Positions 27,579 through 32,297 of a stretch of DNA of 64,000 bases are shown here, in pieces. This DNA is from Candidatus Krumholzibacteriota bacterium. Lineage in GTDB: Bacteria > Krumholzibacteriota > Krumholzibacteriia > JAJRXK01. The notes under the pieces are model-generated. The model made no database searches, was not told the DNA's origin, and saw only the letters and a program-made list of their open reading frames with translations. Position 1 is the first letter of the stretch; each line of letters begins with the position of its first letter. The stretch lies in the NCBI GenBank assembly GCA_029262065.1, contig JAJDAC010000014.1, forward strand, positions 186,001 to 250,000, written 5' to 3'. Made by a program: the position numbers and the translations under genes.

Positions 27579-27673
27579 GCGTGAGTATTGCCTTCGGGCA
27601 GTGCATAGCCTACGCTGGTGGTTCGACAGAAACGTGGTTTGCCGGACCAGCCGCCTCAACAACGGGGAGTTCG

Positions 27674-28276
27674 GTGTTTCTGACCAAACGGCAATCACAG
27701 ATTCTCGAATATCTGCGCAAGACGCTGGCGACGCAGGGGTACGCACCCAGTCTCGAAGAGACAGCCGCGCATTTCAATCTTTCCAGCGTGGGAACCGTCC
27801 ACAAGCACCTGAAGGCGCTTGAGGACAAGGGACTCATCCGCCGACAGTGGAATCGTAGTCGAGCCATTGAAATCGTCGATGTGCCCGACGGCAAAGCGCG
27901 TCGGGTACCGCTGCTGGGACTCGTCAGCAACGGGAAACCCATCGAGGCTATCACTGAGCTCGAAAGCGTGGGAGTCCCCGAAGAGATGCTCGGTCGAGCC
28001 AAGGCCTTCTTGCTACGCGCAAAAGGTGACGGCATGTGCGACGAAGGCATTCTCGACGGAGACTATCTGGTGGTGGAGCAGCGCGAAGATCCGCGCGACG
28101 GCGAAACCGTGGTGGCGCTCATCGATGGTGAGTCGGTCTCGGTTAGGCGCTACGCGGCGAACGGCGCCGGTATTCGACTTGAATCCAACAACTCTCGCAA
28201 TTCACCGCGGCACCTTGATTCCGATCGCTGCCAGATCCAGGGCGTGATCGTAGGGGTACTGCGACACTTTCGTTGA
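27674..28276 (+). CDS. lexA: LexA-family repressor lacking self-cleavage residues
   Basis: A 200-residue LexA homologue with an N-terminal winged helix (LTKRQSQILEYLR; SSVGTVHKHLKALEDKGLI) and a full-length C-terminal S24-type domain (AKAFLLRAKGDGM, DGDYLVVEQ, VVALIDGES). All three features of autoproteolysis are altered. The scissile Ala-Gly is Asn86-Gly87 (VSNGKP), the catalytic Ser of GDSM is Gly120 (GDGM), and the catalytic Lys of VTVKR is Arg158 (VSVRR). So it probably binds DNA but cannot cleave itself in response to RecA; Cys122 is next to the lost serine. GTG 27674 follows GGGGAG; the frame is open to 27581, but LexA homology starts here. Confidence 0.9.
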   Translation: MFLTKRQSQILEYLRKTLATQGYAPSLEETAAHFNLSSVGTVHKHLKALEDKGLIRRQWNRSRAIEIVDVPDGKARRVPLLGLVSNGKPIEAITELESVGVPEEMLGRAKAFLLRAKGDGMCDEGILDGDYLVVEQREDPRDGETVVALIDGESVSVRRYAANGAGIRLESNNSRNSPRHLDSDRCQIQGVIVGVLRHFR

Positions 28277-29410: not shown

Positions 29411-29893
29411 ATGAAGGCCACGACCACTTTTCGATTCAAGACCGACGAGGTGGACCGGGTTCACACGGCCGATCGTCCGCCGGCCGACGAGTTCGAGATC
29501 TTCTTTGCGGGGTCCGGGCGAGCGAACAAGGCCATCAGCATGCAGGGGGACATCGGGTGGCGACCCGCTACCGATGTCTACGAGACCGCCGAAGAATTCA
29601 TCATCCAAATGGACCTGGCCGGCATGCGACGCCAGGAAATCCATGTGTTCATCGAGGACGACTTCGTGCTTATCAAGGGCCTTCGTTCCAACATCGCGCC
29701 CGGCGGCAAGAAGCACTTCCACAAGATGGAGATTCAAGTGGGTCCCTTCGAGCGGCACGTGCGTATTCCGGCCGGACTGGACACCACCACCACGCGCGCC
29801 GACTACACGGCGGGATTCCTCTTCGTTCGTATCCGCCAGGGCGATGGCCGCTGGGGCGAGCGGCGAACCGTGACGATCGAAGACAGGAGCTGA
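29411..29893 (+). CDS. Small heat-shock protein Hsp20 (alpha-crystallin family)
   Basis: A 160-residue ATP-independent holdase chaperone. The alpha-crystallin domain spans about residues 50-145: GWRPATDVYETAEEFIIQMDLAGM, HVFIEDDFVLIKG and FERHVRIPAGLD. The last strand GFLFVRI stands where the family has the A-x-x-x-n-GVL motif. The C-terminal I-x-I anchor is only approximate (VTIEDRS). AAGGAG precedes the ATG. lon starts one base after its stop, so the chaperone and the protease are made together; a protein-quality-control pair is the natural reading. Confidence 0.9.
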   Translation: MKATTTFRFKTDEVDRVHTADRPPADEFEIFFAGSGRANKAISMQGDIGWRPATDVYETAEEFIIQMDLAGMRRQEIHVFIEDDFVLIKGLRSNIAPGGKKHFHKMEIQVGPFERHVRIPAGLDTTTTRADYTAGFLFVRIRQGDGRWGERRTVTIEDRS

Positions 29894-29894
29894 G

Positions 29895-32297
29895 GTGGCC
29901 ACCGAGCAGGAACACAGCGAATCCGACGCGGTCGAATCGGTTCAGATTCCGCGCACGCTTGCCATCCTTCCCATCAGTGATGCCGTCATCTTCCCCTACA
30001 TGATGGTGCCGTTGGTCCTGTCCGACGAATACCTGATCCAATTGGCGGACGACGTTCTCGCCGACTCGAAGATCCTGGGCACGTTCGCGCAACGCCCGCT
30101 TGAAGATGACGAAGACGAAGATCCCGACGCCGAGCCCGATGGCGAAGACGTCTACGAGGTCGGCACGGCCGTGGTCATCCAGAAGATGCTACGGTTTCCC
30201 GACGGGAGCATGCGGTTGTTGGGACAGGGGATTGCTCGCATCCGCCGCAAGAAGTACGTGAGCACCGAACCGTACTTCGTGTCGGAAGTCGAGGTGCTCC
30301 CCGAGATCGAGTCCAAAGACGCGAAGACGCTGGCCTACAGCCGTGGCGTGGCCAACAACTTCGTGAAGATCGTCGATGCGTCTGAACAGCTCAGCGATGA
30401 GCTGAAGATCGTGGCCATGAACATCGACGATCCCGGGCGTCTGGCCGATATGGTGGCTACCAATCTCGACATCGATGTGGCTGAGAAGCAGCACGTGCTC
30501 GAGGAGCTGGCGCCGCGCGCGCGCCTCGAATATCTGAGCAAGGTGGTGTTGCGCGAGCTGGAGGTAGTGGAGCTGGGCGAGAAGCTTCAGAGCCGCGTGC
30601 GCAAATCGATCGACAAGGACCAGCGCGAGTACTATCTGCGCCAGCAGCTCAAGGCCATCCAGCGCGAGTTGGGTGACGTCGATCAAGGTACGGTCGAGTT
30701 GGACGAGTTGCGCGAGCAGATCGAAGCCGTCGAGTTGCCCGACCACGTGCATGAAGTGGCCCTGAAGGAATACGACCGACTCACGCGCATGAGTCCGGGG
30801 GCCAGCGAGTACACCGTGAGCAAGACCTACGTAGACTGGCTGCTCGAGCTGCCGTGGATGGTGAACAGCAAGGACAACCTGAACCTCAAGCGGGCGCAGA
30901 AGATTCTCGACCGGGATCACTACGGTCTCGAAGATGTGAAGGAACGCATTCTCGAATTTCTCGCGGTCAAGAAGCTCAAGGATGACATGCGTGGTCCCAT
31001 TCTGTGCCTGGTGGGACCGCCGGGCGTGGGCAAGACCAGTCTGGGCAAGTCCATCGCCGCCGCCATGGGCCGGGAATTCTACCGGTTGAGTCTGGGCGGC
31101 ATGCGCGACGAGGCCGAGATCCGCGGACATCGCCGTACGTACGTGGGCGCCATGCCTGGTCGCCTGATCCACGGGTTGAAGGTCACAGGCACCAACAACC
31201 CGGTCATCATGCTCGACGAGATCGACAAGCTGGGGCAGGACTTCCGCGGTGATCCCGCCAGTGCTCTGCTCGAAGTACTCGACCCGGCGCAGAACAGCAC
31301 GTTTACCGATCACTACCTGAATCTTCCCTTCGACCTGTCGAACGTGTTCTTCATGACCACGGCCAACATGCTCGACACGATCCCGCGGCCGTTGCGCGAT
31401 CGCATGGAGATCACTCAGCTGAACGGGTACACACCGCAGGAAAAGTTGGAGATCGCCCGTCGCTATCTGTTGCCGCGGCAGATCGAGGAAAACGGACTCA
31501 CGCCGAAGCAGATCGCGGTATCGAACGCGGCCCTGCGGGAAATCATCACCGACTACACGGCCGAATCCGGCGTGCGTACGCTCGAGCGCACCATCGGCAA
31601 GGTATGTCGCAAGGTGGCGCGCGGGTTCGCCACGGGCAAGCGCAAGAAGGTGAGTGTCTCGGTGAAGAATATCGAGGACTTCCTGGGCAGCAGCCGGTAC
31701 AGCGACGAGGAGCGCAAGTCCAAGCCCATGGTGGGGGTCTGCGCGGGCCTGGCCTGGACCCCCGTGGGTGGCCGAATCCTATTCGTGGAGGCGGTCGCCG
31801 TTCGCGGTAAGGGCGGACTGCGGCTTACCGGCCAGCTGGGTAGCGTCATGCAGGAGTCGGCCCAGGCGGCGTTGAGTTATCTGCGCAGCCGGTACGCCAA
31901 GTCCAACGAGGACGCGGCCTGGTTCAGCGCCTACGAGATCCACGTGCATTTTCCCGCGGGGGCCGTGCCCAAGGACGGCCCCAGCGCGGGCATCGCGCTG
32001 GCCACCGCGCTCATGTCGCTGTTCCGGGGGATCCCGGTCCACAACCGCGTGGCCATGACCGGTGAGATCTCGTTGACCGGTGAGGTCATGCCCATCGGCG
32101 GTCTGGTGGCCAAGATTCTCGCGGCCCACCGGGTGGGTATGCAGGAAATCATCATTCCTCTGTCGAACGAGGAAGACCTGGAGGAGCTGCCCGAAGAGGT
32201 GCTCGACGCGCTCACCATTCATACCGTGTCCCGGGTAGAGCAAGTATGGGATATTGCTCTCACGCGGGACTATCGGGCGGTCGTGGCTTCCCGCTGA
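29895..32297 (+). CDS. lon: ATP-dependent protease Lon
   Basis: An 800-residue endopeptidase La. The N-terminal substrate domain (21-215) includes LAILPISDAVIFPYMMVPL. A central coiled coil is followed by the AAA+ module with Walker A GPPGVGKT at 374-381, SLGGMRDEAEIRGHRRTYVG and VIMLDEIDKLG. The peptidase domain has catalytic Ser697 (KDGPSAGIA) and Lys740 (AKILAAHRVG), 43 residues apart as expected. An acidic DEDED stretch near 70-85 is an oddity of the N-domain. GTG start with AGGAGC upstream. Lon degrades misfolded and regulatory proteins in the cytoplasm. Confidence 0.97.
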   Translation: MATEQEHSESDAVESVQIPRTLAILPISDAVIFPYMMVPLVLSDEYLIQLADDVLADSKILGTFAQRPLEDDEDEDPDAEPDGEDVYEVGTAVVIQKMLRFPDGSMRLLGQGIARIRRKKYVSTEPYFVSEVEVLPEIESKDAKTLAYSRGVANNFVKIVDASEQLSDELKIVAMNIDDPGRLADMVATNLDIDVAEKQHVLEELAPRARLEYLSKVVLRELEVVELGEKLQSRVRKSIDKDQREYYLRQQLKAIQRELGDVDQGTVELDELREQIEAVELPDHVHEVALKEYDRLTRMSPGASEYTVSKTYVDWLLELPWMVNSKDNLNLKRAQKILDRDHYGLEDVKERILEFLAVKKLKDDMRGPILCLVGPPGVGKTSLGKSIAAAMGREFYRLSLGGMRDEAEIRGHRRTYVGAMPGRLIHGLKVTGTNNPVIMLDEIDKLGQDFRGDPASALLEVLDPAQNSTFTDHYLNLPFDLSNVFFMTTANMLDTIPRPLRDRMEITQLNGYTPQEKLEIARRYLLPRQIEENGLTPKQIAVSNAALREIITDYTAESGVRTLERTIGKVCRKVARGFATGKRKKVSVSVKNIEDFLGSSRYSDEERKSKPMVGVCAGLAWTPVGGRILFVEAVAVRGKGGLRLTGQLGSVMQESAQAALSYLRSRYAKSNEDAAWFSAYEIHVHFPAGAVPKDGPSAGIALATALMSLFRGIPVHNRVAMTGEISLTGEVMPIGGLVAKILAAHRVGMQEIIIPLSNEEDLEELPEEVLDALTIHTVSRVEQVWDIALTRDYRAVVASR

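Follow-up and report, generated by a model that had tools for sequence, protein, structure and literature searches.

LexA proteins with altered cleavage residues

A catalytic Ser-Lys dyad and a scissile Ala-Gly bond are required for the cleavage of LexA, as established for the Escherichia coli protein (restated in PMC7567884). In the LexA of Synechocystis sp. PCC 6803, both the Ala-Gly site and the Ser are missing, and the protein is reported to control genes outside the SOS regulon (PMC3091678, PMC7567884). In Leptospira interrogans, two paralogues named LexA1 and LexA2 differ in their recognition residues and operators; both retain the Ser-Lys dyad, and their levels fall after UV, presumably because they cleave themselves (PMC3789691).

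The lexA1 gene described here lies in a stretch of 64,000 nucleotides (the window) on a Candidatus Krumholzibacteriota contig (JAJDAC010000014.1). Its product has the two-domain architecture of the canonical LexA (TIGR00498), without the Ala-Gly, Ser and Lys that serve RecA-stimulated self-cleavage. The nearest precedent is the Synechocystis protein, as both keep the LexA fold and the helix-turn-helix and have lost the cleavage site and a catalytic residue. In Synechocystis, however, Gly-Gly and Asp stand in place of the site and the Ser, whereas in lexA1 the Lys is lost too. Moreover, the cyanobacterial LexA is discussed with no canonical paralogues described, whereas lexA1 coexists with two canonical LexAs and, unlike in Synechocystis, a canonical sister allows its changes to be followed. 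As in Leptospira, LexA paralogues with differing recognition residues and operators are found in one organism, but the Leptospira proteins keep the dyad that lexA1 of the window genome has lost. To our knowledge, non-cleavable LexAs have been described mainly from cyanobacteria, and a literature search found no paper naming both LexA and Krumholzibacteriota.

The preferred reading, to which a probability of about 0.72 is given, is that lexA1 encodes a former SOS LexA paralogue that is non-cleavable, has been kept for DNA binding and is uncoupled from RecA.

Identity of lexA1 and replacement of its cleavage residues

The gene and the segments that bear on cleavage are the following:

27674..28276, + strand: lexA1, candidate non-cleavable LexA paralogue of 200 aa, read from a GTG start behind a GGGAG-like ribosome site
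27737..27877, + strand: helix-turn-helix and wing, residues 22-68 of lexA1, nearly invariant in four family members
27926..27934, + strand: former cleavage site, Ser85-Asn86-Gly87 replacing Ala-Ala-Gly (translation, orthologue comparison)
28031..28033, + strand: Gly120 codon ggc replacing the catalytic Ser (translation, orthologue comparison)
28145..28147, + strand: Arg158 codon agg replacing the catalytic Lys (translation, orthologue comparison)

Descent and fold make the protein a LexA, and its profile scores exceed curated cut-offs. It matches the Pfam families LexA_DNA_bind (PF01726, 7e-19) and Peptidase_S24 (PF00717, 3e-23) as well as the NCBIfam equivalog TIGR00498 lexA (182 bits for a cut-off of 111), the latter over its full length, from the N-terminal winged helix-turn-helix to the C-terminal S24 domain. 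An AlphaFold model computed with an alignment of 14 orthologues has a mean pLDDT of 84.6, and its best PDB matches by Foldseek are full-length LexA structures. These matches and the predicted structure agree with the initial annotation, which had described the DNA-binding and fold segments of this LexA homologue as intact.

Judged from its residues, the protein falls outside the self-cleaving SOS LexAs: the defining features, the Ser-Lys dyad and the scissile Ala-Gly, were looked for and are absent. Indeed, Asn86-Gly87 stands at the place of the scissile bond (Ser85-Asn86-Gly87 within VPLLGLVSNGKPIEA), and the dyad positions are occupied by Gly120 (within AKGDGMCDEG) and Arg158 (within GESVSVRRY). 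Translation confirms these three replacements as first proposed, together with the remark that the Ser and Lys codons, now ggc and agg, are each one base off AGC and AAG. In E. coli LexA, the change of this Lys to Arg leaves weak cleavage at high pH only. The locus also carries a warning for annotation, since TIGR00498 scores lexA1 as a full equivalog though no DNA-damage response is expected of it.

Altered and canonical LexA1 in related genomes

Of 80 related LexAs found in other genomes, 78 retain Ala-Ala-Gly, Ser and Lys; the two exceptions are that of G002 and one from Sumerlaeota, which has Ser-Ala-Gly, Ser and Arg. Within the class Krumholzibacteriia, 27 of 31 LexA1 orthologues keep Ala-Gly, Ser and Lys, and the four altered ones belong to the window genome, G002, G003 and, in another family (f6), G019. 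Together with G001, whose LexA1 is canonical, the first three make up the four genomes of family f1 that were compared. The G002 protein has Glu-Met-Gly at the site and Ala for Lys, and the G003 protein has Lys-Gly-Gln and Arg; both keep the Ser, so that all three determinants are lost only in the window genome. The G019 protein (L220, 995-1630, + strand) displays Lys-Asn-Gly at the site and Arg for Lys, with the Ser kept. The alignment across relatives that the initial annotation had suggested therefore shows a loss of site and Lys common in kind to G002 and G003. Because these two independently assembled relatives have lost the same functions through different residues, a sequencing or assembly error at the three lexA1 sites is insufficient to account for the losses.

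In the gene tree, the LexA1 proteins of the window genome, G002 and G003 are monophyletic (100/98 support) with the canonical G001 protein as sister; one Gemmatimonadota outgroup row, badly extracted and giving a long branch, was ignored. The dinB-linked LexA2 proteins likewise place G001 outside the trio. This topology fits a single cleavage-loss event in the ancestor of the trio after its split from G001, followed by further decay. In that ancestor, LexA1 would have lost its RecA-stimulated self-cleavage off-switch, with neither the site nor the general-base Lys remaining in any of the three descendants and the Ser missing in the window genome only. The G019 protein groups with the canonical one of G012, so that a further, separate loss is implied, although the G019 branch is long. 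Within Krumholzibacteriia, altered LexA1 would then have arisen independently at least twice, once in f1 and once in f6 (G019).

In the Sumerlaeota LexA (L107:5938-6609), Ala-Gly and Ser are kept, Lys is changed to Arg and Ser-Met to Ser-Leu; both of these changes recur in altered Krumholzibacteriota LexAs.

The same alignment bears on whether another switch has replaced cleavage. The initial annotation had suggested redox sensing by Cys122, a proposal that is not supported, as the three family orthologues have Arg, Arg and Ile there. A repressor switched by redox state or by modification, with Cys186 or phosphorylation as the off-switch, could be envisaged, since all three altered family orthologues have Cys186, a position taken by Met in G001 and by Val in the remaining orthologues of the class. 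A Ser173 phosphorylation change dependent on salt is also reported for the Synechocystis LexA, without site and Ser (PMC7567884). However, Val stands at position 186 of the altered G019 protein, and Cys is found at this position in some canonical LexA paralogues as well, which, with the variability of position 122, makes such a switch highly improbable.

A candidate ancestral operator and the lexA1 neighbourhood

A direct repeat, TTTCG-N6-TTTCG, is found, with 8-10 of 10 positions matching, upstream of lexA1 in all 26 class relatives examined. In many of these genomes it is part of a TTGACT-N17-TATACT-like promoter; its period is 11, and several f5 genomes carry as many as three copies of TTTCG (promoters L010-L035). 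This repeat is a candidate LexA operator for Krumholzibacteriia; a literature search for it found nothing. LexA1 was probably an SOS repressor ancestrally, because in G012, whose only detected LexA is a canonical LexA1, the same element occurs on a dinB promoter and because lexA1 adjoins translesion-polymerase genes in f3 and in G012 (f6). The lexA1 of the window would thus descend from an ordinary self-cleaving repressor. The repeat was not seen in the recA promoters of canonical relatives, which places recA outside the old LexA1 regulon there.

In the window, the corresponding segment is degenerate:

27588..27616, + strand: promoter-like TTGCCT-N17-TACGCT with one remaining half-site, CTTCG (promoter inferred from alignment with relatives)

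One half-site of the operator is lost, and the best upstream matrix score is 5.4, compared with 12.5-31.2 for the sites from which the matrix was built, 14.3 in G001, 13.2 in G002 and a value below zero in G003. The lineage-specific repeat that would mark a LexA box at its own promoter is therefore no longer intact at the window lexA1. Against the preferred reading, G002, whose LexA1 should also be non-cleavable, retains a recognisable operator at this promoter.

Neither a target gene nor an operator was found for the altered lexA1 protein, as non-exhaustive motif searches of the genome and the window were negative or ambiguous and returned mainly coding or chance sites. Exact TTTCG-N6-TTTCG occurs at 15 sites in the window genome versus 5 for the control, mostly inside genes, the promoter-embedded variant has few intergenic matches forming no coherent set, and the best weight-matrix matches in the window (59584 and 39993) are inside genes. 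The initial annotation had proposed a non-SOS or differently triggered repressor. The absence of the autocleavage residues and the presence of canonical LexAs speak for the former, whereas a different trigger stays conjectural, neither an inducer nor an operator having been found.

The neighbouring genes hsp20 and lon are the following:

29411..29893, + strand: hsp20, neighbour of lexA1
29895..32297, + strand: lon, neighbour of lexA1

The lexA1-hsp20-lon synteny is common to the other f1 genomes and f5, and hsp20-lon has a conserved TTGACG-N17-TACCAT promoter. Repression of this operon by LexA1 was considered and set aside, no LexA-like box being found there. In G001, a Y-family-polymerase-like (IMS_C) gene lies 3 bp behind the canonical lexA1 (L047:7800-8918, - strand), and an ImuB-like/Y-family polymerase gene of this type is absent genome-wide from the altered trio. 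A tie between the loss of cleavage and that of this co-transcribed polymerase was rejected, as many canonical f5 loci are also devoid of the gene. A PADLOC scan gave weak HTH-type matches only.

Selection on the two domains

Among the altered trio, the N-terminal DNA-binding domains are 85-87% identical and the C-terminal domains 39-48%. In canonical orthologue pairs both domains evolve alike, the N-terminal minus C-terminal identity being on average -4.5 points in f5 and +2.5 in f3. Rough NG86 estimates of dN/dS in the trio, with dS near saturation, are about 0.05-0.1 for the N-terminal domain and 0.24-0.45 for the C-terminal one. Constraint has moved off the catalytic domain while the DNA-binding domain has been held, with a helix-turn-helix and wing almost invariant in all four f1 members.

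Such relaxation could also be expected of a decaying relic, made superfluous when the dinB-linked LexA took over and now drifting to loss. The faster evolution of the catalytic domain, the decayed operator at the gene's own promoter, the disappearance of the ImuB-like polymerase partner from the three altered genomes and the lack of any LexA1 match in several class families with a LexA2-type gene would all suit it. A relic, however, would drift in both domains, whereas the identity and low dN/dS of the DNA-binding domain persist across three genomes in two genera, all with full-length open reading frames. A relic is thus regarded as unlikely.

Under the preferred reading of a retained DNA-binding protein, a non-cleavable LexA is predicted still to fold, dimerise and bind DNA, and would most likely keep some set of genes permanently repressed (or activated). 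A point against it is that the dimer interface of known LexAs is borne by the C-terminal domain, the very one that evolves fast here.

Canonical paralogues and the apparent transfer of SOS control

The search for a second canonical lexA in the genome, another suggestion of the initial annotation, revealed two, so that three LexAs coexist there. One is in an operon with dinB and a 459-aa gene (contig C49), and the other is beside an imuA-like gene (contig C41). The dinB-type LexA (LexA2) has an intact site and dyad in all four f1 genomes. The palindrome CCAAAC-N4-GTTT is located upstream of recA (contig C7) and, in two copies, upstream of the dinB-lexA operon; it also precedes dinB in G002 and is upstream of the LexA2 locus in G003. 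In the window genome it occurs at 17 sites versus 3 for a reversed-pattern control. Most simply, it is a candidate operator of the dinB-linked LexA. Because of its presence upstream of recA and of the dinB-lexA operon, this paralogue seems to have taken on the SOS role.

Control of recA and dinB would then lie with the canonical LexA of the dinB operon, probably reading a palindromic box different from that of LexA1. Devoid of the scissile bond and of the general base, the lexA1 protein should stay intact during DNA damage, so that any SOS genes it governs would remain repressed; the box found at recA and dinB is indeed that of the other LexA. Not DNA damage but the amount of the protein or some other signal would control it, its activity being set by expression level, by modification, as proposed for the Synechocystis LexA, or by nothing.

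The presence of three LexAs of the same fold family in one cell could also suggest that lexA1 is a non-inducible SOS partner, damping the response or setting its basal level through heterodimers or competition with canonical LexA. The recognition helices nevertheless differ (SSVGTVHKHLKAL versus ASTRSVHDYLLRL), as do the operators (TTTCG direct repeat versus CCAAAC-N4-GTTT), and no TTTCG repeat is present at the dinB operon, nor did visual inspection reveal one upstream of recA. A partnership of this type is accordingly held to be quite improbable.

With lexA1 released from SOS duty, as preferred here, the locus and its relatives provide a stepwise record: the sister is still canonical, the trio is altered, a paralogue has apparently taken over recA and dinB, and the old operator has decayed. 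A master damage repressor would thus be able to lose its trigger and yet keep its DNA-binding part.

A LexA2-type gene is present in 7 of the 31 genomes, and LexA1 is altered in 4 of these 7 versus none of the 24 others (one-sided Fisher about 0.001, calculated by hand and indicative only, as there are only two independent origins). Its presence is not sufficient for alteration, because G001, G004 and G026 keep a canonical LexA1 alongside it. Whether this is a recurrent route, by which a multi-LexA genome frees one LexA from DNA-damage control for another regulatory purpose, is doubtful, though conceivable. If true, the repeated release of LexA in Krumholzibacteriia would be a natural, repeated experiment in transcription-factor rewiring.

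The LexA2-type gene itself varies in the class. In G019 (L221), it has no normal cleavage region (LGANGECY), and the imuA-type LexA of that genome is intact. In G025 (L211), the nucleophile Ser is replaced by Cys (GDCM), with Lys and Ala-Gly kept, possibly giving a cysteine-based LexA.

Besides, the 459-aa protein encoded between dinB and the canonical lexA (L004:1584-2963, + strand, contig C49) belongs to no Pfam family; an open reading frame stands at the same place in other f1 genomes, so that it is probably an SOS-controlled gene. In G000, two genes with similar N-terminal regions, at C5:76002 (L174) and C22:53930 (L183), lie directly behind good CCAAAC-N4-GTTTG boxes and probably also belong to the SOS genes under the canonical LexA.
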